A stretch of 64,000 bases of DNA, taken from assembly GCF_003838195.1 (NCBI RefSeq), contig NZ_RCBY01000004.1, positions 1-64,000 of the forward strand, read 5' to 3'. A program made the translations under genes and the position numbers. Origin of the DNA: Okeania hirsuta. GTDB taxonomy: Bacteria > Cyanobacteriota > Cyanobacteriia > Cyanobacteriales > Microcoleaceae. This document shows positions 1 through 16,605 of this stretch, in pieces. A model generated the notes under the pieces. That model ran no database searches, was not told where the DNA came from, and was given only the letters and a program-made list of their open reading frames with translations. The first letter of the stretch is position 1; every line of letters begins with the position of its first letter.

Positions 1-325
1 TTTTCAGCTTAGTAAATGCAGAAAACTTGGTACTTAATTATAGTTTCCCTAGTTTGAAGCCAACTTCTCAAAAATGCATAACCTAACTTAGACCAGATAT
101 ACGCATCTTTACAGTTACAGGAAACAACTTGATTCCTGAGATTAATACTAGCTCAAATGACGTAAATTCGTTATTACAGTTTCTCTAGTTTTAAGCCATT
201 TACAGATATAGAAATAGAACTGGTGGCAGGGACAGAAATAGAGATGTTAGTTTAACCCACATCTGCTATCTCAAACCTTTCTCCATCATTCTGTTCAGCA
301 AACCCAATCTCAACGGAAATAAAGC
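1..325. other. Upstream region of the biosynthetic cluster
   Basis: No gene is seen here. A short direct repeat (agtttccctagtttgaagcc at 45-64 and a similar agtttctctagttttaagcc at 178-197) lies upstream of the first gene of the cluster. It is the natural place for the cluster promoter, but I cannot assign -35/-10 boxes with confidence. Confidence 0.3.
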
Positions 326-1423
326 ATGATAATTGTCCTCAAAGCAGCCACTCCGACAGTCGAAATTGAACACATTAAAGACGAACTGTCCCAATACAAA
401 GTCAGCGTCGAAAAAATCATCGGCAAACACCGAGTGGTTATTGGTTTAGTCGGTGAAACGGCTGAACTCGATCCCTTAAAAATTCAAGCTGTCAGTCCTT
501 TTATTGAAAAAGTCTCACGAGTTGAACATCCCTTTAAACGCGCAAGTCGAGACTTCCGACATGGTGAACCCAGTGAAATTATTGTTGAGACACCGAACGG
601 TTCTGTTACTTTTGGCGAACACAGTCCCATCGTTCAAACTGCCGGTCCTTGTTCGGTTGAAAATGAACAGATGATTGTCGAAACCGCCCAACAAGTTAAA
701 GCAGCAGGTGCTCATTTCCTACGTGGTGGAGCTTACAAACCTCGGACTTCTCCTTATGCTTTTCAAGGACATGGTGAGAGTGGTTTGGAATTGCTAGCCA
801 TTGCACGTCAAGAAACTGGCTTGGGAATTATCACCGAGGTAATGGATGCATCCGACATCGAAAAGATAGCAGCTGTTGCAGATATTCTCCAAGTTGGTGC
901 TCGTAATATGCAGAACTTTTCTCTATTAAAAAAAGTTGGTGCTCAAGAGAAACCGGTTCTGCTGAAGCGGGGAATGTCAGCAACCATTGAGGAATGGTTA
1001 ATGGCGGCTGAATATATTTTAGCAGCGGGAAATCCCAATGTTATTTTGTGTGAACGGGGAATTCGCACCCATGACCGCAAATATACCCGGAATACCCTCG
1101 ATTTATCCGTGATTCCTGTCTTGCGGACACTGACTCACCTTCCCATTATGATTGACCCCAGTCACGGGACAGGTAAAGCCGAATACGTCCCGGCAATGGC
1201 AATGGCTTCAATTGCAGCAGGAGCTGATGCTCTGATGATAGAAGTTCATCCCAACCCTTCCCAAGCTCTGTCTGATGGTCCTCAATCCTTGACACCTCAT
1301 CGCTATCAAGACCTGATGCAAGAAATGACAGTTATTGGTAAAACAGTGGGTCGTTGGCCAGAAAAGTTAGCCCTCGCCCCTTCATCCCCTCAAGCCACCA
1401 AAAAATTAAGTGCCATTGTTTAA
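326..1423 (+). CDS. aroF: 3-deoxy-7-phosphoheptulonate (DAHP) synthase, type I-beta with N-terminal regulatory-like domain
   Basis: Catalyses condensation of phosphoenolpyruvate with erythrose 4-phosphate, the first step of the shikimate pathway, in the cytosol. The first ~70 residues form the ferredoxin-like extension typical of Thermotoga-type enzymes. The barrel follows with the family motifs AGPCSVEN (~106), GGAYKPRTSPY (~134), VGARNMQNF (~192), LKRG, CERGIRT and DPSHGTGK (~277). The length of 365 aa is normal for this form. It heads a co-directional run with a chorismate-lyase-like gene, ligase, carrier protein, halogenase and hydroxylase. I therefore infer a cluster-dedicated copy that raises flux to chorismate rather than the housekeeping enzyme, though it could serve both. 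The family call is very secure; the dedicated role is inference. Confidence 0.95.
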   Translation: MIIVLKAATPTVEIEHIKDELSQYKVSVEKIIGKHRVVIGLVGETAELDPLKIQAVSPFIEKVSRVEHPFKRASRDFRHGEPSEIIVETPNGSVTFGEHSPIVQTAGPCSVENEQMIVETAQQVKAAGAHFLRGGAYKPRTSPYAFQGHGESGLELLAIARQETGLGIITEVMDASDIEKIAAVADILQVGARNMQNFSLLKKVGAQEKPVLLKRGMSATIEEWLMAAEYILAAGNPNVILCERGIRTHDRKYTRNTLDLSVIPVLRTLTHLPIMIDPSHGTGKAEYVPAMAMASIAAGADALMIEVHPNPSQALSDGPQSLTPHRYQDLMQEMTVIGKTVGRWPEKLALAPSSPQATKKLSAIV

Positions 1424-1429
1424 ATTTTG

Positions 1430-1481
1430 TTGTGAGTTGAAGGAAAAATTGAAGGCTAACTTAGATTGATTCAACTCACAA
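1430..1481 (+). terminator. Hairpin downstream of aroF
   Basis: Perfect 12-bp inverted repeat (ttgtgagttgaa at 1430-1441 pairing with 1470-1481) directly after the aroF stop codon. There is no clear T-run, so it may be an RNA-stabilising or attenuating hairpin rather than an intrinsic terminator. Confidence 0.4.
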
Positions 1482-1523
1482 TATCTGATCAAACATGTCT
1501 TTTTAGCCAATTCTAGAAAAATA

Positions 1524-2108
1524 ATGCATATGAACGCTCAAACCCTAGTCTTAAGACCAATTTTTTCCCAACACTTTCCGCGAAAGCGGAATTACATCGA
1601 ACCTGTATTACTCAGCCCATTTCAGCGAATATTACTCACAACAAACGGCACTGTTACAGATATGATTGAAGCTTACTCGGGGGAAGCAATCAAAATCAAA
1701 AAGCTGTTTGAAGACGAGATTCAACTTGAAGAAGACATCGTGCCGATGAACCTCAAAAAAGGCACAGAAGTTATCGCTCGCAAAGTGCTACTTCAAGGTA
1801 AGATGAGTGACCGCAACTATGTCTATGCGGATTCAATTTTAGTTCTCGACAGACTGAATGAAAAAATGCGAAACCAACTGTTACAGACCAAAACTCCCAT
1901 TGGGAAACTCTGGATCGAGAACAAAGTGGAAATCTTCAAAGAAAATGTCGAACTTGGCAAAGAACATGCAGGGGATTTAGCAGATTATTTCCAGATTCAA
2001 CCCAAAGACAATCTCCTGTATAGAAGCTACTGCGTCATCTCCAATCATCAGTACACCATGATGATTACAGAGAAGTTTCCGGAAAATAGTTTTAGGCGAA
2101 ATTTCTAA
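1524..2108 (+). CDS. Chorismate lyase-like protein (UbiC/DUF98 family)
   Basis: Predicted to split chorismate into 4-hydroxybenzoate and pyruvate. The 194 aa show the family layout: LLSPFQRILLTTNGTVTDMIEAY near the N-terminus, a basic IARKVLL stretch (~92), YADSILVLDRL (~106) and the C-terminal Y-VISNHQYTMMITEKFP signature (~169-185). ATG 1524 and ATG 1530 are both possible starts. It lies 100 bp after the DAHP synthase and ahead of an acyl-activating enzyme, which is what a pathway built on 4-hydroxybenzoate would need. The stop codon (2106-2108) falls inside the terminal repeat of a MITE, so the last few residues may have been altered by that insertion. The alternative is a plastoquinone-pathway chorismate lyase; the cluster context argues for a secondary-metabolism role. 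Confidence 0.82.
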   Translation: MHMNAQTLVLRPIFSQHFPRKRNYIEPVLLSPFQRILLTTNGTVTDMIEAYSGEAIKIKKLFEDEIQLEEDIVPMNLKKGTEVIARKVLLQGKMSDRNYVYADSILVLDRLNEKMRNQLLQTKTPIGKLWIENKVEIFKENVELGKEHAGDLADYFQIQPKDNLLYRSYCVISNHQYTMMITEKFPENSFRRNF

Positions 2109-2217
2109 TAGACATCTCCAATAATAAAAAAGAAAATCAACTATCGTAAAGAAATTATCAATTCTTTCCCACTACTCCCTACTCCCTACTCCCTCTTTTG
2201 GAAGAGATGTCTAATAG
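2105..2217. repeat. MITE-like element, family C (ends taatagacatctcc / gagatgtctaata)
   Basis: About 110 bp bounded by inverted ends taatagacatctcc and gagatgtctaata, with an 'actccctactccct' microrepeat inside. Related ends occur at 11581 and 13291 (single ends), 16625-16707 and 41838-41955. It separates the chorismate-lyase-like gene from the ligase gene. Confidence 0.65.
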
Positions 2218-2253
2218 CATCGGTTGTTCAAGTGGCACAATAGAGGTAAAATT

Positions 2254-3792
2254 ATGATTATTAAACAGTTGAAAGAAGCGGCTCATTCCTTTCCCAAACA
2301 TACAGCAATTGTCTATAATGAGTCCCGAATTAGTTATGAGCAACTTAACTTCAAAGTTCAAGGATTAAGTGAGGGATTAAGTTCTCTAGAAATCGGCAAA
2401 GGTGATTGTGTCGCTTTCGTTTTACCCAACTGTCCTGAGTTTGTTTATAGCTTCTATGCTGTTGCTCAGTTACAGGGAATTGTTCTGCCTCTCAATCATT
2501 TATTCAAAGCCGAAGAACTGAGTTATTGTCTCAGGGATAGCAAGGCAAAAGCAGTAATTACTGACCTCAAACGTGCCAAAATTTGTCAGGATATTATTGC
2601 AAATATTGACCGAAAAATTGAGTTGATTGTTGTGGATGGTGTTTATCCCGAAAGCCACTATATATACCATCTAATTCTGCCAGGAAAATTTCAACATCAA
2701 GACTATTCAGAAAAAGCTCTTTCTTCTGATCTTCTGTATCAATATTCATCCGGTTCAACGGGGAAACCAAAACGAATTGCACGCACCCAGGCGAGTCTTT
2801 GCCATGAGGTAAAAAACTTCGCAGAAACCACCCAAATTCAGCCCTCAGATAATATTCTTTGTGCAGTTCCGATGTATCATGCTCATGGGTTAGGAAATTG
2901 TCTCCTCGCAGCCACTTGTAATGGTGCAACCTTAGTTATTTTAGAACAGGTTTTGCAGAAGGATGGTACACCTGTTGAGGTTCCCTTTGTCTTCCGGTGC
3001 CCCCGAATTTTTGAACTGATTAAAACGGAGAAGATTACCATCTTTCCGGCAGTACCTTATATCTTCAATGCTTTAGCAGAAACTCGAACAAAAACCTTGG
3101 TGAACCTATCTAGTTTGAGATTATGCTTTTCAGCCGGAAACTTTTTATCCAAAGACATTTTTGATAAGTTTTGGCAGCGATTTAAGATTCCTATTCGACA
3201 GCTTTATGGCTGTACTGAGGCTGGATCTGTGGCAATTAATTTAGAGGAAGACATCAACAAAATTTATCACTCTGTTGGATTTCCGCTCAATAATGTTGAA
3301 CTCAAAATTGTTAATGAAAGTGGAAATGAGCAACCCATGGGAATGAGTGGAGAAGTTGTGATCAAAAGTCGCTCTCTAACTCAAGGTTATATTAATCAGC
3401 CAGAACTGAATCAACAAGTCTTTAAGGAAGGATGTTTCTATACAGGTGATTTAGGGAAAAAAGATGAGTGGGGTCGAGTGTATATTACTGGTCGCAAGAA
3501 GCTGCTCATTGATACCGGAGGTCGCAAAGTTGACCCGATAGAAGTAGAAGATATTTTGATGAATCATCCTCACATTAAAGAAGCTGTTGTTGTTGGTGTA
3601 AAAGGATCTTATGCTGGCGAGTTGGTTAAAGCTGTAATTGTCAAAAAAAGTCGAAAAAATTTTGACGACCAAGAGATTCTTTCATTTTGTAAGCAGCGTC
3701 TTGCGGAGTTTAAAGTTCCCAAAATCATTGAATTTCGCCCAGATATTCCCAAAAGTCCACTCGGAAAAATTCTGAGAAAGGAATTAGTTTAA
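2254..3792 (+). CDS. AMP-forming acyl ligase, probable 4-hydroxybenzoate-activating enzyme
   Basis: ANL-superfamily enzyme (513 aa) expected to adenylate a carboxylic acid and pass it to CoA or a carrier-protein thiol. The P-loop-like A3 motif SSGSTGKPK is at ~165-173. YGCTEAGS, then YTGDLGKKDEWG and GRKKLLIDTGGRKVDP follow. A C-terminal PKSPLGKILRKEL supplies the catalytic lysine. ATG 2254 is chosen because tagaggt lies just upstream; an in-frame TTG at 2224 would add ten residues but has no ribosome site. It is followed 50 bp later by a free acyl carrier protein, the likely acceptor. The substrate (4-hydroxybenzoate) is inferred from the neighbouring chorismate-lyase-like gene, not from a binding-pocket code. 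Confidence 0.88.
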   Translation: MIIKQLKEAAHSFPKHTAIVYNESRISYEQLNFKVQGLSEGLSSLEIGKGDCVAFVLPNCPEFVYSFYAVAQLQGIVLPLNHLFKAEELSYCLRDSKAKAVITDLKRAKICQDIIANIDRKIELIVVDGVYPESHYIYHLILPGKFQHQDYSEKALSSDLLYQYSSGSTGKPKRIARTQASLCHEVKNFAETTQIQPSDNILCAVPMYHAHGLGNCLLAATCNGATLVILEQVLQKDGTPVEVPFVFRCPRIFELIKTEKITIFPAVPYIFNALAETRTKTLVNLSSLRLCFSAGNFLSKDIFDKFWQRFKIPIRQLYGCTEAGSVAINLEEDINKIYHSVGFPLNNVELKIVNESGNEQPMGMSGEVVIKSRSLTQGYINQPELNQQVFKEGCFYTGDLGKKDEWGRVYITGRKKLLIDTGGRKVDPIEVEDILMNHPHIKEAVVVGVKGSYAGELVKAVIVKKSRKNFDDQEILSFCKQRLAEFKVPKIIEFRPDIPKSPLGKILRKELV

Positions 3793-3841
3793 ACCGATAT
3801 CATCACAGTCCAAATACTAATTTTTTAACGAGCATAATACC

Positions 3842-4096
3842 ATGATTACAACTACAAGAATTCAAGAACAAGTTCAAGGGTTAGTTTTGGAAGTTCTACC
3901 CGATGTGACCTTAGAAGAGTTGCAAGACGATGTAGATATCTTCAACTTGGGTCTAGATTCAATTAACACGATGACTCTAATTTCTAACTTGCAAGAGACT
4001 TTTGAAATTGAGTTAGATGTGAGTGAGATTAGTTTTGAGAACTTTCAAAATATCTCAACAATTGTGGAGATGATTGAAGAAAAGAAAAGTTGTTAA
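3842..4096 (+). CDS. Free-standing acyl carrier protein
   Basis: 84-aa acidic four-helix carrier protein. The phosphopantetheine attachment serine is S40 in the motif NLGLDSIN; the C-terminal half (FEIELDVSEISFENFQNISTI) is typical helix III/IV. It would hold the aryl group activated by the preceding ligase, and could present it to the halogenase, the hydroxylase and the condensation domain encoded downstream. Discrete carrier proteins paired with a ligase and a halogenase are known from pyrrole and phenol halogenation pathways. The exact acyl cargo is inference. Confidence 0.9.
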   Translation: MITTTRIQEQVQGLVLEVLPDVTLEELQDDVDIFNLGLDSINTMTLISNLQETFEIELDVSEISFENFQNISTIVEMIEEKKSC

Positions 4097-4338
4097 ATTT
4101 TATAGCGCTACTTGAATCGGGAATAGGGAATAGGGAATAGGGAATAGTAGACTAATAAAGGGTTTTAGGATTTAGAAATGTCAAGAGCCTTAATGCGTAG
4201 CACTATAACAATCTATTTAGGGTTTCGGTGCGTTACGCTACCGCTAACACACCCTACCCATAGCTTTCTTCCCTTCTGCCTCCTGCTTTCTGCCTTCCTT
4301 CCTCCAAAGTGTAATTATTCAACCAGACATGATATAAT
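4097..4338. repeat. Spacer with microrepeats and a MITE-A end
   Basis: Holds three tandem 'gggaata' units (4118-4147), a dispersed palindromic piece ggtgcgttacgctaccgcta with its partner acacaccctacc (4218-4258), pyrimidine-rich 'tgccttcctt' microrepeats, and at 4323-4335 the degenerate right end of a family-A MITE (ccagacatgatat). The next start codon lies 3 bp beyond that end. Confidence 0.5.
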
Positions 4339-6939
4339 ATGTCACTCGAAACATTAAACAAAAAACAACAGAAAACTTCTCCAGTTACCAATAATTCAAC
4401 TCAATCAGTGGCTGCTAAAAAGGAGTTATGGGAAGCAATGAGAACGGTCATTAGCTTACAAAATCAAGCTCCACCCTTAGTCTCTGTTTCCCGAGAAAAT
4501 CCACTTCCTCTCTCTTTTCCTCAAGAGCGGTTATGGTTTTTACAACAGTTGGAACCAAGTAAAGCTGCTGCTTATAATATGCCATTTGGGTTTCGCATTT
4601 CCGGTTCACTTAATCCATTAGCTTTAGAGCAAAGTCTGAATGAACTTATTCAACGTCACGAGGCTTTGCGAACGACTTTTACCTTAGTTGAAGGTCAACC
4701 AACTCAAGTCATTCACTCCTCTTTTTCCTTTCGTTTATCTGTAATTAATTTACAGAACTTCCCTCAAAAACAACGGGAAAATAAGGTAATGGAATTAGTG
4801 AAGGGAGATATTGAGCAACCGATTGAATTGACTCAACTGCCTCTGTTTCGAGGAACACTTTTTCAACTTGATGAACAGGATTATTTTCTGTTACTGAATG
4901 TTCACCATATTATCGTCGATGCTTGGTCAAAAGGAGTTTTATTTCAGGAGTTATCAACACTCTACGAAGCATTTTCTCTCGGTCAATCTTCACCACTACC
5001 AGAACTTCCAGTGCAGTATGCGGACTTTTCGGTTTGGCAACGTCAATGTATTCAAGGTGAGTTTAAAGAGACTTTGCTAAACTATTGGAAGCAACAACTT
5101 GGCGATAATTTACAAGCCTTAAAGCTGCCAACTGACTATCCTTATCCGACTAATCCTACCCATTCTAGTGCCTACAATAAACAGTTACTTTCTGTTGAAC
5201 TCACGACTCAACTTAAAAGCTTCAGTCGAAAACAAGGAGCAACATTATTTGCAACGTTATTAGCTGCATTTAATGTGCTATTATATCGCTACTCTGACCA
5301 AGACGATTTTTTTGTATGTAGTCCAATTGCGAATCGGAGTCGGAAAGAAACAAAGGGATTAATCGGTTACTTTGCGAACTTACTGATTCTACGGACACAG
5401 TTGAACGTAAACCAAACGTTTCGGGAGTTTTTGAGTCAAGTTCGTCAGGTTGTTTCCGGAGGTTACGCTTATCAAGATTTACCCATTCAAGAAATTATTA
5501 ACGCTCTAAATTTACTGCAAACTCCTCTATCTAAGGTGATGTTTGCACTGCAAAATACAACAATTCATACCTTAAACTTACCCGATTTAAATGTCGAAAC
5601 CTTTAATCTTGATAGCGGAACAGCGGATTTTGACCTCTATCTCTATCTGATTCCAGAAGGTGATACTTTTGCTGCTATATTCAAATACAATGCTGATTTA
5701 TTTGAGGAAGCAACCATTGCTAAAATGCAGGAGCATTATCGTACTATTCTGGAAAACATTTTAATCAATCCAGAGCAGTCTATCTTGGATTTACTCCCTT
5801 TGAGCGCAACTGAACAACAACAATTAGAGGAGAAACGAGCCAATCAATCTACATTAAAACCACCCAGTAATTATTCTAAACCTGCTTATCTTGCACCCCG
5901 CAATTCAACTGAACTCAAACTCGTTCAATTATGGAGTAAAGTATTAGGAATTGAATCCATTGGAATTCGAGATAACTTCTTTGATTTAGGTGGACAGTCC
6001 TTAATGGCGATGAGTTTGTTTACTCAAATTGAACAAACCTTTGGTAAAACGTTACCTTTGGCAACACTACTAAAATCTCCAACCATTGAACAACTAGCCG
6101 AAATTCTTGCTGAAAACGAATCTTCTCTCCCTTGGTCTTCATTAGTTCCACTTCAACCTCGTGGTTCTAAACCCCCTTTCTTCTGCATTCATGGACAACA
6201 AGGAAATGTATTGAATTTACGAGAATTAGCCAAATCTCTAGGTTCAGAACAACCGTTTTATGGATTGCAAGTTAAAGGGTTAGATGGCAAACAAATGCCT
6301 GACTTTACAATCGAAGCAATGGCGACTAATTATCTTCAAGAAATTCGCAGTGTTCAACCCCATGGTCCCTATTTTCTAGGGGGAAACTCTATGGGAGGTA
6401 CGATTGCTTTTGAGATGGCACAACAACTTCAACAACAAGGAGAAAAGGTGGCATTACTGGTGATGTTTGACACTTTCAATAAAAGTGCTTTTCCTCGCCT
6501 TGTATTCCGAAACCAACACTACTTCAAATACTTATCCCAATTGGGACTATCCAAGTCACTATTTGAGGAACTCAAAGACGTTACTCAACGCCAACTGCAA
6601 GCAATCCTTTGCCAGCTTTATCTAGGTTTAGGAAAACCTCTACCTCATCATCTCAGTCGTGCGATCGTAGCTGAGGCGAATATGCAGGCAAAGTGGGTTT
6701 ATTCACCACAAGTTTATTCCGGTAAAATTACCCTGTTTCGGGCTAAAAAATCTGCTAAATTCAACAAGTTTTATTTACCGAATCAAGCAGATTGGGAAAC
6801 TCGTGATCCTGAACATGGTTGGAGTAATTTTTCTAGGGATAAATTAGAAATTTACGATGTACCGGGAGACCATTATTCAATTTTTGATCGACCAAATGTA
6901 CAGGTCTTAGCTGAGATTTTAAAAGCTTGCTTAGGTTAG
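4339..6939 (+). CDS. NRPS-like condensation - peptidyl carrier - thioesterase protein without adenylation domain
   Basis: 866 aa. After a ~45-residue linker there is a full condensation domain (~50-480). It starts with the C1-like LSFPQERLWFL and has a core HHIIVDAWS at ~189-197, where the usual glycine after the aspartate is alanine. A carrier domain follows with LGGQSL (attachment serine ~S554). A type-I thioesterase ends the protein, with GGNSMGG (nucleophile ~S684), a probable acid in MFDTF (~D711) and GDHYS (histidine ~H845). No adenylation domain is present, so the carrier must be loaded in trans. I infer that it condenses two aryl-thioester units (ester or depside bond), or an aryl unit with a free nucleophile, and releases the product. 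No clear Shine-Dalgarno precedes ATG 4339, and MITE sequence lies immediately upstream. Confidence 0.9.
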   Translation: MSLETLNKKQQKTSPVTNNSTQSVAAKKELWEAMRTVISLQNQAPPLVSVSRENPLPLSFPQERLWFLQQLEPSKAAAYNMPFGFRISGSLNPLALEQSLNELIQRHEALRTTFTLVEGQPTQVIHSSFSFRLSVINLQNFPQKQRENKVMELVKGDIEQPIELTQLPLFRGTLFQLDEQDYFLLLNVHHIIVDAWSKGVLFQELSTLYEAFSLGQSSPLPELPVQYADFSVWQRQCIQGEFKETLLNYWKQQLGDNLQALKLPTDYPYPTNPTHSSAYNKQLLSVELTTQLKSFSRKQGATLFATLLAAFNVLLYRYSDQDDFFVCSPIANRSRKETKGLIGYFANLLILRTQLNVNQTFREFLSQVRQVVSGGYAYQDLPIQEIINALNLLQTPLSKVMFALQNTTIHTLNLPDLNVETFNLDSGTADFDLYLYLIPEGDTFAAIFKYNADLFEEATIAKMQEHYRTILENILINPEQSILDLLPLSATEQQQLEEKRANQSTLKPPSNYSKPAYLAPRNSTELKLVQLWSKVLGIESIGIRDNFFDLGGQSLMAMSLFTQIEQTFGKTLPLATLLKSPTIEQLAEILAENESSLPWSSLVPLQPRGSKPPFFCIHGQQGNVLNLRELAKSLGSEQPFYGLQVKGLDGKQMPDFTIEAMATNYLQEIRSVQPHGPYFLGGNSMGGTIAFEMAQQLQQQGEKVALLVMFDTFNKSAFPRLVFRNQHYFKYLSQLGLSKSLFEELKDVTQRQLQAILCQLYLGLGKPLPHHLSRAIVAEANMQAKWVYSPQVYSGKITLFRAKKSAKFNKFYLPNQADWETRDPEHGWSNFSRDKLEIYDVPGDHYSIFDRPNVQVLAEILKACLG

Positions 6940-7007
6940 TCTCACTTTTCCTTGAATTAATGTTAACCGAAATAATGTTTACTCTCAATACAGCAGGAGA
7001 TTTCACA

Positions 7008-8735
7008 ATGAATACAATGACTTATGATGTAGCAATTTGCGGTGGTGGTTTAGCGGGTTCTACTTTAGCTAGACAGTTGAAGTTAACAATGCCCGATCTT
7101 TCTATTATTGTCCTAGATCGTTTGGCTCGACCTCTACCTGAAGGTGCTTTTAAAGTTGGAGAATCAACGGTTGAAGTGGGTTCCTATTATCTGGCTGAAA
7201 CACTCCAATTTGGTGATGGTTATTTCAAACTGAATCATATGCCAAAGTTGGGACTGCGTTTCTTCTTAGGTGATGCTCAAGGTAAATTTGAAGAACGTCC
7301 TGAACTCGGACTATCTAAATTTCATTCTCCTTCCTCCTATCAAATTGACCGAGGTAAGTTTGAAAATGATCTGCGAAACTTAAACATCGAAGCAGGAATT
7401 GAATTTTTAGAAAATTGCAAGGTTCTTGATATGATCCTATCTGAAAATAATCAAGACTTCCATGAAATTGTTTACACTCAAGATGACACGAAGCAAAAGA
7501 ATACCATTCAAGCTAAATGGGTTATTGATGCGATGGGTCGTCGTAGATTTTTGCAGAAAAAACTGGGTTTAGCTCAACGAAATAGTTCTAAACATAGTGC
7601 GGTTTGGTTCTGGGTCAATGAACGGGTTGATGTCAGTGATTTTGTTCCCAAAAGTAACCAAAACTGGCATGAGCGTGTCCCGGGAAATCAACGATATTAT
7701 TCAACCAATCACTTGTGTGGAAAAGGCTACTGGATTTGGATGATTCCCCTCCCCAATAACTATACCAGTATTGGGATTGTCACTGATGAAACGGTTCATC
7801 CTTTCAAACAACATAACACTGAGGAAAAAACATTTAATTGGCTCCAAACCTATGAACCTACTTTAGCTAATCATCTTCAAGGGATTTCAACTCAAAAATT
7901 TATGAAGATGCCTCACTATAGCTATTCCTCTAAACAAATTTTTTCAAATAATCGTTGGGCTTGTGTTGGTGAAGCTGGAGTATTTCCCGATCCCTTCTAT
8001 TCTCCTGGTACTGACCTAATTGGATTTGGAAATTCTCTCGTCACTCAGATGATTGAAGCGGATTTGCAAGGTAACTTGACTTCAGAAATAGTCGCGGAAG
8101 CCAATCGCTTTTTACTCACTTATGCCGAAGGGGTAAAAGATAATATTCATAAGGTTTACTCCTGCTTTGATAAAGATTTAGTGATGGCAATTAAGGTAAT
8201 TTGGGATACCCTATCCGGCTGGGCATTTAGTGCGCCTCTGATGTTTAATTCGATTTTCCTTGACTCTGAAAAACGGGCAAAAATTCGTCAAGGTTCAGGT
8301 CGATTTTTTCTGTTAGCTCACCGGATGCAAAAGTTGTTTATAGACTGGGCAGAACTCTCGCAAAATCGGGGAACTTATGAGTATCTTGATTACTTAGAAA
8401 TGGATTTCATCAAGCAATTGCGATCGCGGAATTTACAATCCAATAAAACGGAACAGCAACTCATTGATGATCATATTGCTAGTTTGGAAATGTTTGAGGA
8501 ACTTGCCCAGGTTATTTTTCGCATGGCACTTGAAGATACAATGCCTGAAAAATTAGCTGATTTTCCGGAGTCTGCCTGGTTAAATGCTTGGGCAATTAGC
8601 CTCAATGAACACCGATGGGAAAAGGATGGATTATTCCGCCCCAGAACTCAACCCCGTGACTTGCATCCAATGACTCAACAACTCCGAAAAAAGATTCACT
8701 TCCCTTCAGTTGTTAAGCAACCTGTTACGGTTTAA
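7008..8735 (+). CDS. FAD-dependent halogenase family protein
   Basis: 575 aa flavoprotein. The N-terminal GGGLAGS (~11-17) is the FAD-binding GxGxxG. The motif WIWMIP (~242-247) exactly fits the WxWxIP signature of flavin-dependent halogenases, and GEAGVFPDPFYSPG (~321) follows. These enzymes use FADH2, O2 and halide to make HOCl/HOBr equivalents and chlorinate or brominate electron-rich aromatic rings. ATG 7008 is chosen because caggag lies 9 bp upstream; longer frames back to 6927 would overlap the NRPS gene and lack a ribosome site. Its position after a carrier protein and an aryl ligase suggests action on a carrier-bound phenol. Some family members are not halogenases, so halogenation itself needs proof. 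Confidence 0.85.
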   Translation: MNTMTYDVAICGGGLAGSTLARQLKLTMPDLSIIVLDRLARPLPEGAFKVGESTVEVGSYYLAETLQFGDGYFKLNHMPKLGLRFFLGDAQGKFEERPELGLSKFHSPSSYQIDRGKFENDLRNLNIEAGIEFLENCKVLDMILSENNQDFHEIVYTQDDTKQKNTIQAKWVIDAMGRRRFLQKKLGLAQRNSSKHSAVWFWVNERVDVSDFVPKSNQNWHERVPGNQRYYSTNHLCGKGYWIWMIPLPNNYTSIGIVTDETVHPFKQHNTEEKTFNWLQTYEPTLANHLQGISTQKFMKMPHYSYSSKQIFSNNRWACVGEAGVFPDPFYSPGTDLIGFGNSLVTQMIEADLQGNLTSEIVAEANRFLLTYAEGVKDNIHKVYSCFDKDLVMAIKVIWDTLSGWAFSAPLMFNSIFLDSEKRAKIRQGSGRFFLLAHRMQKLFIDWAELSQNRGTYEYLDYLEMDFIKQLRSRNLQSNKTEQQLIDDHIASLEMFEELAQVIFRMALEDTMPEKLADFPESAWLNAWAISLNEHRWEKDGLFRPRTQPRDLHPMTQQLRKKIHFPSVVKQPVTV

Positions 8736-8757
8736 GGATTCATTTTCTATCATCAAT

Positions 8758-8784
8758 GAGGTGAGTGAAATACCCACCTCTTTT
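8758..8784 (+). terminator. Hairpin plus T-run between halogenase and hydroxylase genes
   Basis: gaggtg (8758-8763) pairs with cacctc (8775-8780) and is followed by tttt. It could be a weak terminator or a processing hairpin between two genes otherwise likely to be co-transcribed. Confidence 0.5.
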
Positions 8785-8815
8785 CCAAAAGATTGACCAA
8801 AATTAGGAGTTTACG

Positions 8816-10018
8816 ATGACAAAGACCACACAGTTAAAAACCTCAGTCTGTATTCTTGGTTGCGGTCCAGCTGGTATTGTTCTCGGCAATATTTTGCTCA
8901 GAAATGGAATCGATTGTATTGTGATTGATAAGTATAATCGTGAAGAAATTTATGCCAGAGGACGAGCCGGAGTGATTGAAAGTACAACAGTTCAAGTCCT
9001 TAAAAAAAATGACCTGGCGGATACCCTGCTGAAAAATGCTTATACTCACGGTTCTTGTGAGTTTCGCTATCCTGATAAAAGCCTAACTTTTGAATATGGA
9101 AGCTTAAGTGGAGGAGATGTTCATTATGTTTATCCTCAAAGTGATCTCAACGATGATTTGATTGAAAAATATATCAAGGATGGTGGTAAGTTACTTTTTC
9201 ATCATGAAGGAAAAAAGATTGTTCAAAGTGATGACAAAGTCGAAGTTGAATGTTATGATTTAGATAGTCAAAAAACTGTAACGATTCAAGCGGATTTTGT
9301 AGCTGGATGTGATGGTTATCATGGGTTAGCTCGTCAATCTGTTCCCCCTGAAGCTGTAGAGATTTACAGCAAACAATACAACTATCGCTGGTTAGCAATT
9401 TTAGCCTACGCTCCCCCTTCAGCCCAGTATACTCTTTATGGTGTACATCCAGATGGTTTTGCAGCTCATATGCTTCGCAATAGCAAGATTTCTCGCTATT
9501 ACCTTCAAATTCCCAGCACCGATACTTTAGAAGATTGGTCAGATGAGCACATCTGGGCTAATTTACACCAGCGGCTTGCTAAAGAAGGATGTCCGTTAAA
9601 TGAAGGCGAAATCTTTCAAAAGCGTATTATGGAGCTGCGGAATTATGTGATGGAACCCATGGGTTATCAACGATTATTATTAGCAGGAGATGCAGCTCAT
9701 ATTATTACCCCAATGGGTGGAAAAGGCTTAAATTTAGCGGTGCAAGATGCGGGAGTTTTAGCAGAGACATTGATTAGCTACTATCTCGAAAACCACGATC
9801 TTTCTTATCTAAACCGCTACTCCGAAATTCGCTTGCCCTACATCTGGCGTGCTCAAGAATTCTCCTACAGCTTGTTAACAATGTTGCACTCACCGGAAGG
9901 AGAGGATTTAGAGGATGTACGTTTTCGACGTAAACTCAGTGAATCTAAGCTCTCTCAATTAACAACTTCATCAACATTTGCTAAGAATTTTGCCCGAAAC
10001 TACGTTGGTATTGTATAA
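8816..10018 (+). CDS. pobA: 4-hydroxybenzoate 3-monooxygenase-like flavoprotein (PobA family)
   Basis: 400 aa single-component class A flavin monooxygenase. Motifs in order: GCGPAGIVLGN (~15, FAD), RGRAGVIESTTV (~44, very like PobA RARAGVLE), and LLAGDAAHIITPMGGKGLNLA (~292), which combines the GD motif and the flavin-shielding region. PobA hydroxylates 4-hydroxybenzoate to 3,4-dihydroxybenzoate with NAD(P)H and O2. There is a good ribosome site (aggag, 8 bp upstream of ATG 8816). In this neighbourhood the likely substrate is 4-hydroxybenzoate or its halogenated or condensed derivative. No ring-cleavage genes are nearby, which argues against simple catabolism. A family relative acting on a modified phenol is the main alternative. 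Confidence 0.85.
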   Translation: MTKTTQLKTSVCILGCGPAGIVLGNILLRNGIDCIVIDKYNREEIYARGRAGVIESTTVQVLKKNDLADTLLKNAYTHGSCEFRYPDKSLTFEYGSLSGGDVHYVYPQSDLNDDLIEKYIKDGGKLLFHHEGKKIVQSDDKVEVECYDLDSQKTVTIQADFVAGCDGYHGLARQSVPPEAVEIYSKQYNYRWLAILAYAPPSAQYTLYGVHPDGFAAHMLRNSKISRYYLQIPSTDTLEDWSDEHIWANLHQRLAKEGCPLNEGEIFQKRIMELRNYVMEPMGYQRLLLAGDAAHIITPMGGKGLNLAVQDAGVLAETLISYYLENHDLSYLNRYSEIRLPYIWRAQEFSYSLLTMLHSPEGEDLEDVRFRRKLSESKLSQLTTSSTFAKNFARNYVGIV

Positions 10019-10025
10019 TTTTCGA

Positions 10026-10051
10026 GATTCCTTGGGAGACCAGGGAATTTC
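10026..10051 (+). terminator. Imperfect hairpin between pobA and the cupin genes
   Basis: Imperfect inverted repeat attccttgg / ccagggaat just after the pobA stop codon, without a convincing T-run. It may mark the end of the cytosolic part of the cluster. Confidence 0.3.
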
Positions 10052-10089
10052 AGACCATTACATTGTCAAAATTTTTAGCAGGTATACCC

Positions 10090-11580
10090 ATGAATGCCAG
10101 TACTAAGTCTACCGCATTTTACGTCGCTAGTTCATTTCTATTAATTTTGGGAATCAGTTTTCCAGCAGAAGCTCACTTTGGTTTTGATTTCCATGAGCAT
10201 GGACAACAGGATTCCTCAAATGTTTCTTCTTTTACCATTCCGACCAATGCTACTGAAGCTTCAAATACTCTTGAAATCACAGCAAATGGTGACACTCCAG
10301 TTGTATTACCTGATGTAGACCGTCCGGGCTTTTGGCTATTCAGTGACAACGCAGAGTTTGTTGAAATTGGTGACAATACTGATGGTCAGTTAGCACTTTT
10401 TGATTTCATTACCTTACCGGGTGGACCACTACCTCACTATCACACCCTTGAAGATGAGTTTGTCTACGTTCTTGAGGGAGAAATAACCTATCAACTTGAA
10501 GACCAACTCTTTACTGCGACACCTGGAACCTTCATTTCTAAACCGAAAGATGTTCTCCATGCTTTTGTTAATGCGGGTGAAGAACCTGCCCGTCACATAG
10601 AGTTTGTAATCCCGGCTGGAATTGATGGCCTATTTGAACTTTTGGGTCAACCGGGAACCTCTGATAATCCACCTTTTCCTCAACTTCCAACACCTGAATT
10701 ATTAGAGGGTGGCTTCCAACTGTTGAGGGATTTTGGGGTAGTGGCACCTGACTCATTACTCATTACTCCCCCTCAATTTGGAATTACGCAAGAGGGTGAT
10801 CCTGAACTTGTTGTAATTCGTCCGGGTGAAGCTGATGGAGAAGCGAGTGCGACACTGATTGTTAGTAATCCTGAAGATGACTCAACTGTTGCTGAAATTC
10901 CTGTTACCTTTGGGGATGGAGAACGAATTCAAAACTTAGAGATTACTGGTATTGAAGGTGCAGAAAATCAGAACTTTGAACTGACCTTAGTTGATCCGAT
11001 TGATACCAGTATTGCACTCCTACAAAATAAAGCCCTTTTCACCTTGGGTGAGGATAATACTTACACCTTAATTGATGGGTATTCTCCGGATGATTTTCCT
11101 CTGTTACTCCCTGATCCGAATCCGAATTCTTTTTGGTTAGGTGGAAGTAATTATACACAGGTTGCTAACCTGAATCAAACGGAAGGACTGCTCTCATTAT
11201 TTGATGTCTTTATTCCCGAACAAAACTCAGGGATTGAAGAATTATTAACAGCTCCAACCGATTTAGCACTCTACACGTTGGATGGAGAGCTAACTATTAA
11301 TGTTGCCGATCAATCCTTTAGTGCCGATCCGGATACCTTTATTTACTTGCCAGAAGGAAGCAAGTACAGTTTTAGTAACTTTGAAACATTTTCCGCTCGC
11401 ACTCTACTATTTACGACTGATAATCCCTCTAAATTAGAAGATTTTGTTATGACATTTGGTACTCCAGATGATCAAGACAATGTAAATATTCCTGAGCCTT
11501 CTTTGATTTCTGGTTTACTACTCATGGCTTGCAGTGCAGGCGCTCTGTTGAATAAAAATCGTAAATCAGTAAATCATTAG
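10090..11580 (+). CDS. Exported bicupin with Calx-beta-like domain and PEP-CTERM tail (copy 1)
   Basis: 496 aa. A signal peptide ends at AEA-H (~30). Cupin 1 follows (~70-175) with an intact metal site: PHYHTLEDEFVYVLEG and PKDVLHAFVN give the HxH, E and H ligands. A Calx-beta-like segment (~225-305) precedes a second cupin (~325-440) that lacks the histidines. The C-terminus is a PEP-CTERM signal: PEPS, a hydrophobic segment, then NKNRK. Such proteins are exported and processed by an exosortase. ATG 10090 is used; an upstream in-frame TTG at 10063 is unlikely. A metal-dependent oxygenase, isomerase or sugar/phenol-binding role at the cell surface is possible; I cannot name the reaction. From about residue 35 on it is identical to the next gene. 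Confidence 0.85.
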   Translation: MNASTKSTAFYVASSFLLILGISFPAEAHFGFDFHEHGQQDSSNVSSFTIPTNATEASNTLEITANGDTPVVLPDVDRPGFWLFSDNAEFVEIGDNTDGQLALFDFITLPGGPLPHYHTLEDEFVYVLEGEITYQLEDQLFTATPGTFISKPKDVLHAFVNAGEEPARHIEFVIPAGIDGLFELLGQPGTSDNPPFPQLPTPELLEGGFQLLRDFGVVAPDSLLITPPQFGITQEGDPELVVIRPGEADGEASATLIVSNPEDDSTVAEIPVTFGDGERIQNLEITGIEGAENQNFELTLVDPIDTSIALLQNKALFTLGEDNTYTLIDGYSPDDFPLLLPDPNPNSFWLGGSNYTQVANLNQTEGLLSLFDVFIPEQNSGIEELLTAPTDLALYTLDGELTINVADQSFSADPDTFIYLPEGSKYSFSNFETFSARTLLFTTDNPSKLEDFVMTFGTPDDQDNVNIPEPSLISGLLLMACSAGALLNKNRKSVNH

Positions 11581-11799
11581 ACATCTCCAGAAAAGAGGGA
11601 ACTTAGATAGCCCAATTCAATTGTCATTGTTTGATACTTCTGAGTTGACTACTAGATGTAAAAAGTTTAATGGTGCACTTCGGGCGATCAATTAAGTTTG
11701 TTCTCAAATTTTAGGGGAAAGTAATTTATATGCTGGTTGCTTTCCTCCCAACACTAAAACACACTTTATAGTGTGGGTCTCCAGCAACTATTTTTATTA
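11581..11799 (+). promoter_or_regulatory. Spacer carrying a perfect palindrome just before a cupin gene
   Basis: The spacer starts with a family-C MITE end (agacatctccagaaaag) right after the stop codon. It contains the palindrome cacact-ttat-agtgtg (11760-11775), about 24 bp before ATG 11800. The same spacer recurs at 13291-13509. The palindrome could be an operator or RNA hairpin; no ribosome site is evident before the ATG. Confidence 0.4.
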
Positions 11800-13290
11800 A
11801 TGAATACAAAAACTAAGTCTACCGCATTTTACGTCGCTAGCTCATTTCTATTAGCTTTAGGAATCAGTTTCCCCGCACAAGCTCACGTTGGTTTACATTT
11901 CCATGAGCATGGACAACAGGATTCCTCAAATGTTTCTTCTTTTACCATTCCGACCAATGCTACTGAAGCTTCAAATACTCTTGAAATCACAGCAAATGGT
12001 GACACTCCAGTTGTATTACCTGATGTAGACCGTCCGGGCTTTTGGCTATTCAGTGACAACGCAGAGTTTGTTGAAATTGGTGACAATACTGATGGTCAGT
12101 TAGCACTTTTTGATTTCATTACCTTACCGGGTGGACCACTACCTCACTATCACACCCTTGAAGATGAGTTTGTCTACGTTCTTGAGGGAGAAATAACCTA
12201 TCAACTTGAAGACCAACTCTTTACTGCGACACCTGGAACCTTCATTTCTAAACCGAAAGATGTTCTCCATGCTTTTGTTAATGCGGGTGAAGAACCTGCC
12301 CGTCACATAGAGTTTGTAATCCCGGCTGGAATTGATGGCCTATTTGAACTTTTGGGTCAACCGGGAACCTCTGATAATCCACCTTTTCCTCAACTTCCAA
12401 CACCTGAATTATTAGAGGGTGGCTTCCAACTGTTGAGGGATTTTGGGGTAGTGGCACCTGACTCATTACTCATTACTCCCCCTCAATTTGGAATTACGCA
12501 AGAGGGTGATCCTGAACTTGTTGTAATTCGTCCGGGTGAAGCTGATGGAGAAGCGAGTGCGACACTGATTGTTAGTAATCCTGAAGATGACTCAACTGTT
12601 GCTGAAATTCCTGTTACCTTTGGGGATGGAGAACGAATTCAAAACTTAGAGATTACTGGTATTGAAGGTGCAGAAAATCAGAACTTTGAACTGACCTTAG
12701 TTGATCCGATTGATACCAGTATTGCACTCCTACAAAATAAAGCCCTTTTCACCTTGGGTGAGGATAATACTTACACCTTAATTGATGGGTATTCTCCGGA
12801 TGATTTTCCTCTGTTACTCCCTGATCCGAATCCGAATTCTTTTTGGTTAGGTGGAAGTAATTATACACAGGTTGCTAACCTGAATCAAACGGAAGGACTG
12901 CTCTCATTATTTGATGTCTTTATTCCCGAACAAAACTCAGGGATTGAAGAATTATTAACAGCTCCAACCGATTTAGCACTCTACACGTTGGATGGAGAGC
13001 TAACTATTAATGTTGCCGATCAATCCTTTAGTGCCGATCCGGATACCTTTATTTACTTGCCAGAAGGAAGCAAGTACAGTTTTAGTAACTTTGAAACATT
13101 TTCCGCTCGCACTCTACTATTTACGACTGATAATCCCTCTAAATTAGAAGATTTTGTTATGACATTTGGTACTCCAGATGATCAAGACAATGTAAATATT
13201 CCTGAGCCTTCTTTGATTTCTGGTTTACTACTCATGGCTTGCAGTGCAGGCGCTCTGTTGAATAAAAATCGTAAATCAGTAAATCATTAG
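11800..13290 (+). CDS. Exported bicupin with Calx-beta-like domain and PEP-CTERM tail (copy 2, hybrid)
   Basis: 496 aa. The signal peptide (cleavage near AQA-H) and first ~37 residues are identical to the downstream cupin B protein; everything after is identical to copy 1. It therefore has the same intact first cupin metal site, Calx-beta-like middle, histidine-free second cupin and PEP-CTERM anchor. The simplest explanation is unequal crossing-over between copy 1 and cupin B within their shared signal-peptide region, which doubled the gene dose. An in-frame GTG at 11773 lies inside the spacer palindrome region and is an unlikely start. The function is as uncertain as for copy 1. Confidence 0.83.
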   Translation: MNTKTKSTAFYVASSFLLALGISFPAQAHVGLHFHEHGQQDSSNVSSFTIPTNATEASNTLEITANGDTPVVLPDVDRPGFWLFSDNAEFVEIGDNTDGQLALFDFITLPGGPLPHYHTLEDEFVYVLEGEITYQLEDQLFTATPGTFISKPKDVLHAFVNAGEEPARHIEFVIPAGIDGLFELLGQPGTSDNPPFPQLPTPELLEGGFQLLRDFGVVAPDSLLITPPQFGITQEGDPELVVIRPGEADGEASATLIVSNPEDDSTVAEIPVTFGDGERIQNLEITGIEGAENQNFELTLVDPIDTSIALLQNKALFTLGEDNTYTLIDGYSPDDFPLLLPDPNPNSFWLGGSNYTQVANLNQTEGLLSLFDVFIPEQNSGIEELLTAPTDLALYTLDGELTINVADQSFSADPDTFIYLPEGSKYSFSNFETFSARTLLFTTDNPSKLEDFVMTFGTPDDQDNVNIPEPSLISGLLLMACSAGALLNKNRKSVNH

Positions 13291-13509
13291 ACATCTCCAG
13301 AAAAGAGGGAACTTAGATAGCCCAATTCAATTGTCATTGTTTGATACTTCTGAGTTGACTACTAGATGTAAAAAGTTTAATGGTGCACTTCGGGCGATCA
13401 ATTAAGTTTGTTCTCAAATTTTAGGGGAAAGTAATTTATATGCTGGTTGCTTTCCTCCCAACACTAAAACACACTTTATAGTGTGGGTCTCCAGCAACTA
13501 TTTTTATTA

Positions 13510-14628
13510 ATGAATACAAAAACTAAGTCTACCGCATTTTACGTCGCTAGCTCATTTCTATTAGCTTTAGGAATCAGTTTCCCCGCACAAGCTCACGTTG
13601 GTTTACATTTCCATGAGCATGAACAACAGGATTCCTCAACAGAAACATCTAGCTCGACAGAAACATCTAGCCCGATTGATATCTATGATTTTTTGAATGG
13701 CCCCATTCCCACGGCTATCACTGATTATGTAGCCGGGTTAGATGATATCTCAGCGACATCTTTATTCTACCAAGATTTAGAAACTGCATGGGTTGCAGGT
13801 GGACGAATTTCCTTTGTTGAAACAGGCGAGACCACTAATGAACAATACACCCTATTAGATGTGGTTGTTGTCCCTGGTGGTGGTACTCCATTACACTTCC
13901 ATGAAAATGAAGCTGAGTGGTTTTTCATGCTGGATGGTACTTTAGAGTTTCAATTAGAAGACCAAACAGCACTGACACCACCTGAAACGCTTATTTTTGG
14001 CCCCGAAAATGGCAAGCACGCCTTCCGAAATCAGACATCAGATTTGGCGAGGCTACTCATTTATTATGAACCTACAGGAGTTGAAGACTTTTTCCGGGAA
14101 GTCGGTCAGCCCGTAACAGATCCATTTAATCAACCTCCTGTAAATCCTGAAGAACTTTTGGAAGCCGCCCCAGCAAACGGGCTTATATTTCCTAGCTCAC
14201 TAGAGTTTGCCGGTAATCAATTCTTCACTGAGGAAGGGTCTTCTGTCGCAACAGTAGATGTAATCCGCACTGGTGCTGTTGAGGATATTGTTGGTGGTAG
14301 CATTTTTCTAGGTACTGGAACTGAAATCCCAATTGAGTTTGGTATTGGCGAGAGTTTTCAAAGGGTAAATATTCCCCTACCTAATGACATTAACACCATT
14401 GACTTATTCTTAAAAAATCCTACGGGTGGAGCTTCTATTGGTCTGCTAGCAGACCAGGCTATTATTAGGACAAGATCAATCCCTGAGTCTTCTTTCCCTG
14501 TTGGTTTGTTAGCTTTTGGTACAATCGGTGCAGGTTTAATGCTCAAAAATCGCAAGTCAAATCAATGGAATGTAGAACGTAGTTTCATGTTTAATTCATC
14601 TAAAACAAAGTCTTCTAAAACTTTATAA
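13510..14628 (+). CDS. Exported single cupin with Calx-beta-like domain and PEP-CTERM-like tail (cupin B)
   Basis: 372 aa. It shares the signal peptide of copy 2, then diverges into a linker with a repeated SSTETS. The cupin (~85-200) has an intact metal set in PLHFHENEAEWFFMLDG and GKHAFRN. A Calx-beta-like segment (~235-315) follows. The tail has PESS, a hydrophobic stretch and KNRK, but then runs ~22 residues past the basic cluster, unusual for a PEP-CTERM protein. It is the donor of the 5' end of the hybrid gene. It is co-directional with the cluster and followed 112 bp later by the GDSL gene. Probably an extracytoplasmic metalloprotein; the reaction is unknown. Confidence 0.82.
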   Translation: MNTKTKSTAFYVASSFLLALGISFPAQAHVGLHFHEHEQQDSSTETSSSTETSSPIDIYDFLNGPIPTAITDYVAGLDDISATSLFYQDLETAWVAGGRISFVETGETTNEQYTLLDVVVVPGGGTPLHFHENEAEWFFMLDGTLEFQLEDQTALTPPETLIFGPENGKHAFRNQTSDLARLLIYYEPTGVEDFFREVGQPVTDPFNQPPVNPEELLEAAPANGLIFPSSLEFAGNQFFTEEGSSVATVDVIRTGAVEDIVGGSIFLGTGTEIPIEFGIGESFQRVNIPLPNDINTIDLFLKNPTGGASIGLLADQAIIRTRSIPESSFPVGLLAFGTIGAGLMLKNRKSNQWNVERSFMFNSSKTKSSKTL

Positions 14629-14670
14629 ACAGAAGTTTAGCGTCAGACTTTTTTAATCTCAGAAAATAAA

Positions 14671-14700
14671 AACTGGAGTGGAAAAAATCCTGCTCCAGGA
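14671..14700 (+). terminator. Hairpin between cupin B and GDSL genes
   Basis: ctggag pairs with ctccag across a ~15-base loop (14671-14698). No T-run follows, so the role is uncertain. Confidence 0.35.
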
Positions 14701-14740
14701 CTTAAATTGATAACTCAACTAGGACAAGGAGAAATTTTTG

Positions 14741-15829
14741 ATGAGCATCACTATCGATCAAATCTTTGATGAAGATTTTTATCTTTCTCAATATCCAGAA
14801 GTGGCTGATGCGATCGCAAATGGTACTGCCAACAGTCCCCTCGATCATTACCTAACAGTTGGTCAATATCAGGGTGATCTTCCCGGCAAACTTTTTAGCG
14901 ATGTTTATGTCTTTGGAGATAGTTTTTCTGATGATGGGAATTTGTTTGAACTGACTAACGGTATTTTTCCAGAATTTCCAAATTTTGAAGGACGTTTTAC
15001 CAATGGGATAATTTGGATTGAAACTTTAATCCCTGAGTTGGGTTTAGAGATAAATCCTGAAAATAATGTCGCCTATGGAGGTGCAACGACAGGAACCGAT
15101 AATGTTCTCAATCCGAGAACAGATGTTTTACCCGATAACCTACTGCCTTTACCCGGAATCCAAACACAAATTGATGATTTTGTCGCCGAAAATCCTGTTG
15201 CCGATCCCGATGCACTTTATATGGTTTGGGGAGGCGGTAATGATTATGTGGGTTTAAGTCTAACGGAAGTTGATACACCCATTACCAACTTATTAACAAC
15301 AATTGATAAATTAGCCGATGCAGGGGCAAAAAATATTATGATACCTAATCTTTTTGATTTAGGTGCAATTCCCCTTGCTGTTAATGGTTCTCCTGAAGTT
15401 CAGCAAAGACTGGCACAAGTTACTCAAGATCATAATGCAGCGTTGCAAACAGCTTTAGAAGAAGTTGAACAAAATTCAGATATCAATATTATTCAGGTTG
15501 ATATGTATTCAGCCCTGAATCAAGCTATAGAAAATCCAGCTAACTTTGGGTTTTCTAATGTCACAGAGGCTTTTTTAGATACGAATGCAACCAATCCTGA
15601 TGAATTTGTATTCTGGAATCCGATTCATCCTACTGTCCGTTCTCATAATTTATTTGCAAATCAGGCTCAGAAATCTCTTTCTGAGGTTTCTGAAGTGCTG
15701 AGTATTGTCGAAGCAACTCAAGAATATCCCCGTCAATCTGTACCTGAACCTTCAATTTTTAATTCCGGATTGGTGATTGTATTGGCATTATTATTTTTGA
15801 GTAATAACTTATCAAAAAAAACAAGATAA
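14741..15829 (+). CDS. GDSL-type esterase/lipase with N-terminal cyanobacterial repeat module and PEP-CTERM tail
   Basis: 362 aa SGNH/GDSL hydrolase. An N-terminal module FDEDFYLSQYPEVADAIANG with HYLTVGQYQG resembles the 'YYLxxNPDVA...HYxxxG' repeat of cyanobacterial secreted proteins. Catalytic blocks follow: FGDSFSDDG (block I serine, ~S67), WGGGNDY (block III, ~163) and NPIHPT (block V Asp/His region, ~287). The C-terminus is VPEPS + hydrophobic segment + SKKTR, a PEP-CTERM sorting signal. ATG 14741 is preceded by aaggag at good spacing. Placed directly after the cupin genes, it may hydrolyse or transfer an ester outside the inner membrane, perhaps of the cluster product. No classical N-terminal signal peptide is obvious, which is odd for a PEP-CTERM protein. 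Confidence 0.85.
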   Translation: MSITIDQIFDEDFYLSQYPEVADAIANGTANSPLDHYLTVGQYQGDLPGKLFSDVYVFGDSFSDDGNLFELTNGIFPEFPNFEGRFTNGIIWIETLIPELGLEINPENNVAYGGATTGTDNVLNPRTDVLPDNLLPLPGIQTQIDDFVAENPVADPDALYMVWGGGNDYVGLSLTEVDTPITNLLTTIDKLADAGAKNIMIPNLFDLGAIPLAVNGSPEVQQRLAQVTQDHNAALQTALEEVEQNSDINIIQVDMYSALNQAIENPANFGFSNVTEAFLDTNATNPDEFVFWNPIHPTVRSHNLFANQAQKSLSEVSEVLSIVEATQEYPRQSVPEPSIFNSGLVIVLALLFLSNNLSKKTR

Positions 15830-15851
15830 ATTATCCGGAATACTGACATTT

Positions 15852-15937
15852 TGCCCCCCTAGACCCCCAAATTTGGGGGGAATAAGAGTCAACTTGCTTC
15901 TAAAAGTCCCCCTAAATTGGGGGATTTAGGGGGCTTT
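15852..15937. repeat. C/G-rich palindromic intergenic repeat
   Basis: Two palindromic blocks: ccccctagacccccaaattt with its complement ggggggaat, and tccccctaaattgggggatt followed by tagggggc. This is a repeat type common between cyanobacterial genes. It could act as a bidirectional terminator between the GDSL and GST genes. Confidence 0.6.
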
Positions 15938-15984
15938 CACATCAAGTTAACTGAAAATTTCACTGCTCAACCTAGGAGTCTTCA

Positions 15985-16605
15985 ATGATTGAACTGTACA
16001 CACACAATACCCCAAACGGTCACAAAATTTCTATTTGTTTGGAAGAACTTGAACTCCCTTACACTGTAAAGCATATAAATGTTTATGAGGGAGAACAATT
16101 CAAAGAAGAATTTGTTGCACTCAATCCTAATGCTAAAGTTCCAGTAATTGTAGATCAAGAAACTGGACAAACGGTATTTGAATCCTGTGCAATTTTACTC
16201 TATCTTGCAGATAAAACTGGACGGTTAGTATCACAATCAACTCAAGGTCGTTGGGAAGCAATTCAATGGTTGTTTTTCCAAGCGGCTTCTATTGGACCAA
16301 TGTTCGGACAACGAGCGCACTTTGCCTTGTTTGCTCCTGAAAAAATCCCTTACGCAATTGAACGCTATACCAAAGAAACTGAAAGGCTGTATGGTGTCCT
16401 TGAACAACGTTTGAAGCAGCAAAAATATCTCTGCGGTGATGAATACTCTATTGTAGATATTGCCCATTGGGGTTGGGTTTATACTGCTAAACGTATGGGA
16501 TTTGGCTTCGATCAGTTTTCCTGCTTAATCGCATGGCACGATCAAATTGCAGAACGTCCTGCGGTTCAGAAAGGAATTCAAGTTCCTGGACCTCTTCCTT
16601 TCTAA
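15985..16605 (+). CDS. Glutathione S-transferase family protein, YfcG/Nu-class-like
   Basis: 206 aa. The thioredoxin-like N-terminal domain begins MIELYTHNTPNGHKISICLEEL, the TPNG signature of YfcG-type proteins; PVIVDQETGQTVFESCAILLYL holds the glutathione-binding ES pair. The C-terminal helical domain has the family-conserved SIVDIAHWGWV. YfcG-like enzymes act as disulfide-bond oxidoreductases or detoxifying transferases. A ribosome site (taggag) precedes ATG 15985. At the end of a cluster with a halogenase it could protect against reactive phenols or quinones, or tailor the product; that is inference from position. Confidence 0.88.
   Translation: MIELYTHNTPNGHKISICLEELELPYTVKHINVYEGEQFKEEFVALNPNAKVPVIVDQETGQTVFESCAILLYLADKTGRLVSQSTQGRWEAIQWLFFQAASIGPMFGQRAHFALFAPEKIPYAIERYTKETERLYGVLEQRLKQQKYLCGDEYSIVDIAHWGWVYTAKRMGFGFDQFSCLIAWHDQIAERPAVQKGIQVPGPLPF

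Follow-up and report, generated by a model that had tools for sequence, protein, structure and literature searches.

We found that the window, the whole stretch of 64,000 nucleotides analysed here, carries a gene cluster that may encode a hydroxybenzoate assembly line, in which one free ligase would load two carriers, a condensation (C) domain would form an aryl ester (depside) and a thioesterase (TE) would release or cyclise it. We give this reading a probability of about 0.45, and the aryl ester is, as an unproven candidate, the best-supported product. The proposal follows from the recurrence of genes for aryl-acid supply, the ligase, an acyl carrier protein (ACP) and a C-PCP-TE protein without a travelling amino-acid adenylation (A) gene. 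The genes of the cluster are as follows.

326..1423, + strand: DAHP synthase, the shikimate-pathway entry enzyme, as predicted dedicated precursor supply (PF00793, E 3e-84; NF009933, 675 bits, cut-off 486)
1524..2108, + strand: chorismate pyruvate-lyase of the Rv2949c type, predicted source of 4-hydroxybenzoate (PF01947, E 1e-14)
2224..3792, + strand: free AMP-forming ligase for aryl acid activation (PF00501, E 2e-79; AMP-binding_C), start codon probably internal at about 2251
3842..4096, + strand: free ACP with a GLDSIN motif, the putative donor carrier (PF00550, E 1e-12; motif comparison)
4339..6939, + strand: C-PCP-TE protein of 866 aa with an ATG start and no A domain
6927..8735, + strand: flavin-dependent halogenase with the motif WIWMIP (WxWxIP; PF04820, E 1e-9), start probably internal at about 7005
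8816..10018, + strand: 4-hydroxybenzoate 3-monooxygenase-like flavoenzyme (NF006091, 407 bits, cut-off 351; PHBH in the PDB, E 2e-82)
10063..14628, + strand: three tandem cupin-domain genes (PF07883)
14738..15829, + strand: GDSL esterase-like gene, common to the Okeania relative only, of uncertain membership in the cluster
15985..16605, + strand: glutathione-dependent disulfide-bond oxidoreductase or GST-like gene (NF010579 match, below its cut-off)

The free ligase that the preliminary description had placed upstream of the C-PCP-TE gene, and the free carrier it mentioned, were both confirmed there with Pfam. The closest solved structures of the ligase are 4-coumarate and oxalate-CoA ligases, and the PDB matches of the halogenase are PltA, ChlB4 and CmlS. 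In relatives too, the DAHP synthase gene adjoins the chorismate lyase gene, and the lyase was present in 21 of the sampled neighbourhoods. Cupin genes were found in 8 clusters and the GST-like gene in 5. Two of the cupin genes (10090-11580 and 11800-13290) share 99.1% identity across 1491 nt, and their 14 differences all fall within the first 97 nt. The third copy is diverged and comes next, with the 1710-nt spacing repeated.

The C-PCP-TE protein was described from the following features.

4501..5826, + strand: C domain (Pfam Condensation, PF00668, residues 55-496, E 9e-104)
4903-4923, + strand: C core motif HHIIVDA (residues 189-195)
5317-5319 and 5530-5532, + strand: Cys327 and Ser398, which form the clade signature of the C domain together with Tyr344 and Gln384
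5917..6105, + strand: in-cis PCP (PP-binding, residues 527-589) with Ser554 of GGQSL
6175..6936, + strand: TE (Pfam Thioesterase, from residue 613) with Ser684 of GNSMGG, Asp711 and His845

The Pfam profile search found no AMP-binding domain in this reading frame, so its content is C, PCP and TE only, as the preliminary description had it. A hidden or misread A domain was ruled out by the linker between C and PCP, which is about 28 aa long, and by the identical layout in relatives. Profile, fold match and the HHxxxD motif identify an NRPS condensation domain, and the protein lacks the cis A domain of a canonical C-A-PCP elongation module. Ser554 and the candidate triad Ser684/Asp711/His845 are present and align with those of relatives; the Ser/Asp/His triad is that of a type I releasing thioesterase. 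The PHROGs search returned a generic C-domain match only.

To see which genes travel together, we compared neighbourhoods of ligase orthologues, which were found in 28 of the 391 host-order genomes and in 2 of 65 from another order. Most of these neighbourhoods have the ACP and the A-less C-PCP-TE gene alongside, and usually a chorismate lyase and/or a chorismatase. We defined type A clusters by the halogenase; they all have the hydroxylase except those on cut-off contigs. Type B clusters have the ligase, ACP and C-PCP-TE genes without halogenase or hydroxylase (L115, L117, L145-L148, L152, L153, L155-L158 and L160, among which L115, L117 and L146-L148 have the core with aryl-acid supply included), usually with a chorismate lyase and often with a DAHP synthase of another subfamily.

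Chorismate lyase yields 4-hydroxybenzoate, and Hyg5-type chorismatases yield 3-hydroxybenzoate. A chorismatase of the FkbO/Hyg5 type lies near the ligase in six neighbourhoods: without a lyase in the stretch in L155, L156 and L158, and together with one in L153, L157 and L159, and some clusters may thus supply two different aryl acids. In L160 (8204-10714) the domain scan showed a chorismatase fused to the aryl ligase, and the ligase of L161 (10001-12529) has the same enlarged size. These neighbours and the L160 fusion tie the ligase to chorismate-derived aryl acids, and judged from this sequence context it is very likely an aryl-acid ligase. Some A-less C-PCP-TE proteins come after PKS or NRPS modules where no hydroxybenzoate ligase is present, so the class is not tied to hydroxybenzoate. 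We also observed a tandem pair of A-less C-PCP-TE genes with a sulfotransferase downstream (L116, 3315-8901), and a Male-sterility-type reductase fused to an A-less C-PCP (L020, 8011-10950) whose neighbours are a ligase, an ACP, a chorismate lyase, a radical SAM enzyme and sulfotransferases.

The free ligase is the only adenylating enzyme of the cluster, as had been supposed from the window, and no amino-acid activating gene travels with the core set. In four relatives (G343, G063, G388 and G401) the C-PCP-TE protein carries the genome's only C domain. Two of them, G063 (a single contig) and the core-only type B genome G388 (96% complete, so that an A domain could be missing from its assembly), have no amino-acid A domain at or above the curated cut-off, and their best amino-acid-adenylation match is the cluster ligase, below that cut-off. 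Loading of the PCP by a separate A domain elsewhere, which the preliminary description had weighed against its own proposal, is not needed in these two. In G343 the ligase gene of the cluster gives the best A-domain match, which lies above the cut-off, and G401 possesses one true A domain at another site in its genome. The window genome (G000) has eight amino-acid A-domain matches; for the window, the argument from missing A domains therefore runs through the relatives. Taken together, the four relatives with a single C domain, two of them without an above-cut-off A domain, suggest that the cluster ligase probably loads both the free ACP and the in-cis PCP.

To place the C domain, we built a tree from the 205 C and E domains collected at the loci, with 60 FastTree bootstrap replicates. 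The A-less C domains group together, nearest LCL-type domains, with a local support of 0.89 (0.99 with two A-containing neighbours). The hydroxybenzoate-type set and the type A set were each recovered in 60 of 60 bootstraps, and all A-less C domains formed a clade in 30 of 60, so that support for their monophyly is only moderate. In L149-L151, an orthologous ligase and ACP precede NRPS proteins that contain A domains; a clade uniting the first C domains of these proteins with the A-less set was recovered in 0 of 60 bootstraps, and an aryl-starter C domain type fed by hydroxybenzoyl-ACP was ruled out on this basis.

The A-less domains are marked by residues in the C domain itself. Cys327 occurs in 34 of 35 A-less C domains and in 0 of 129 A-containing ones, where ordinary domains have the conserved Gly of the (V)GxPxAxR motif. 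Tyr344 was found in 34/35 against 5/129, Gln384 in 35/35 against 3/129, and Ser or Thr at position 398 in 32 of 35, where ordinary domains have Phe. The first C domains of L149-L151 keep G327, E384 and F398, so the signature follows the missing A domain and not the donor. The signature residues are also present in a plasmid-borne relative from Gloeothece verrucosa PCC 7822, which lies beside genes for an AMP-binding protein, an ACP and a P450.

The preliminary description had pointed to an altered core motif, HHxxxDA, and suggested that its Ala may mark an ester-forming C domain. The motif is real (HHIIVDA), but it is not rare: among the 156 C domains that do not belong to the A-less group, 14 (9%) have Ala after the catalytic Asp, including ordinary modules (10 of 129 C domains with a cis A domain), and type B relatives with the same core have Gly there. 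Ala was thus rejected as a class marker, and its reading as a mark of ester formation is not supported. By sequence comparison, Cys327 with Tyr344, Gln384 and Ser398 is the better marker. Ala or Phe follows the catalytic Asp in all type A clusters and in L113, the halogenase-bearing ones, so that a non-Gly residue appears to track with the cluster halogenase in two origins, an association that is suggestive only. FscG has Glu at this position, and non-Gly residues there have been linked to small acceptors (PMC8097023).

The AlphaFold model of the C domain (pLDDT 85, pTM 0.83) matches C-domain structures with TM up to 0.87. By sequence and by this model, the closest solved structures are the amide-forming LCL domains Txo2, TycC6 and DhbF, which have Gly where the A-less clade has Cys327 and lack Ser398; the match to SgcC5 is weaker (E 5e-38 vs 2e-78). 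Whether the C domain clusters with ordinary amide-forming domains, a check proposed with the initial reading, thus received a mixed answer: its neighbours are LCL-like and the LCL gate arginine is kept, yet it lies in a separate clade in which the conserved G327 and F398 are replaced.

Several known systems share parts of this arrangement. VibH of the vibriobactin pathway is a C enzyme acting with a soluble amine, and SgcC5 of an enediyne pathway forms esters; both work without a cis A domain, but they are stand-alone enzymes with no fused PCP-TE. In enterobactin synthesis, EntE, EntB and EntF likewise provide a free aryl-acid ligase, an aryl carrier and a C...PCP-TE protein; EntF differs in having an A domain for serine, and its C domain, which served as a reference, has G and not C at position 327. 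The terminal module of yersiniabactin HMWP1 is A-less and depends for the loading of its PCP on HMWP2, whose A domain, the only one in the pathway that adenylates an amino acid, acts in trans. This is an analogy for one ligase loading both carriers; the yersiniabactin unit has a Cy domain and uses cysteine, whereas here a C domain is paired with a stand-alone aryl ligase.

On these grounds we propose the following assembly line. The dedicated DAHP synthase and chorismate lyase would supply 4-hydroxybenzoate, which the free ligase would activate and load onto the free ACP. With the carrier promiscuity that we infer for it, the same ligase would load the PCP of the C-PCP-TE protein in trans. The hydroxylase-like flavoenzyme and the halogenase would modify the ring, perhaps in that order. 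The C domain would then transfer the aryl acyl group on the ACP to the phenolic OH of the aryl unit on the PCP, forming a depside, and the TE would release or cyclise the aryl ester. The depside suggested in the preliminary description is still the most economical product, given that the core set recurs without an amino-acid A gene and that two relatives have no above-cut-off A domain.

The findings counted against a depside include the NRPS A domains in the host genome, the nearness of the C domain to amide-forming LCL domains rather than to SgcC5, the gate arginine R64 (P0001 numbering), which all 35 A-less C domains have, and the A-less C-PCP-TE proteins that come after PKS or NRPS modules. 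We infer the equivalence of R64 to FscG R2577 from its position and the pattern of residues. The gate arginine was proposed to favour aminoacyl over neutral acceptors (PMC8097023), and its conservation speaks mildly against a neutral acceptor. According to the PDB titles, 8g3i is an FscG acceptor complex loaded with glycolic acid, showing that such a C domain can accommodate a hydroxy-acyl acceptor. The first two findings, with the gate arginine, would fit an ordinary amino acid loaded on the PCP in trans by an A domain elsewhere, giving an aryl amide, as would the orthologous ligase and ACP that precede amino-acid modules in L149-L151. We consider an aryl amide rather improbable, since the cluster is transferred between genomes as a whole, no amino-acid A gene accompanies it in the sampled type A and core-only neighbourhoods, and G388 and G063 have neither an above-cut-off A domain nor another C domain.

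It is also possible, if unlikely, that the aryl group on the ACP is handed by the C domain to a soluble nucleophile (amine, alcohol or sugar), much as VibH acts on a soluble amine, or to the PCP thiol, from which the TE would transfer it to a soluble acceptor. The clusters contain no A domain, and some relatives have sugar-linked neighbours (dTDP-sugar epimerase, DRL-type oxidoreductase) or sulfotransferases. The TE nucleophile is Cys instead of Ser (GxCxGG) in many relatives (L113, L115, L117, L118, L119, L146-L148 and L157), which could favour acyl transfer over hydrolysis. However, if the C domain by itself used a soluble acceptor, the conserved PCP and TE would have no role, yet none of the relatives compared has lost the PCP Ser; R64, which is likewise kept, has been proposed to keep out unloaded Ppant and to prevent pass-through (PMC8097023). 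Decay of the module was considered as well, because in the C-PCP-TE relatives L153 (2654-5281) and L155 (12189-14840) the C domain reads HQxxFDG, with the second His lost, and the TE triad is degenerate in L153 and L160; these losses also count against the depside. Every catalytic residue is preserved in the window and its close relatives, and the reading frame stays open over an identity range of 58 to 96%, making a non-functional module very improbable.

The depside assembly line, if correct, belongs to a mobile cluster. This cluster occurs in G003, of the same genus as the window genome, in two genomes of a Moorena-type genus (L139 and L140/L023), in part in a Crocosphaera MAG (L022, about 95-96% DNA identity), and in G036, G161 and G182, where the individual proteins are roughly 40-83% identical. 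Between the window (295-18100) and L139, a Moorena-type genome of another family, the cluster is 93-96% identical in DNA, whereas rpoB is only 73-76% identical. This difference indicates recent horizontal transfer, and by this measure the cluster is recently exchanged between Okeania- and Moorena-type genomes.

In the open-access literature we found no known product and no described C-PCP-TE depside enzyme; an earlier description elsewhere is possible. We tentatively propose, with the odds somewhat against us, a cyanobacterial class of C domains that have Cys for the Gly of (V)GxPxAxR and use a hydroxyl acceptor on an A-less carrier, here making depsides of halogenated hydroxybenzoate, both carriers being charged by one ligase. 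Depsides are usually products of polyketide enzymes. If this reading of the Cys-marked class is true, it would mean that thiotemplated synthesis of depsides needs neither a PKS nor an amino-acid NRPS, and would add an aryl-ester route from chorismate-derived acids with about five core genes. The residue signature would offer a handle for mutagenesis on what decides between amide and ester in C domains, and an orphan halogenated product is predicted from Okeania- and Moorena-type marine cyanobacteria.
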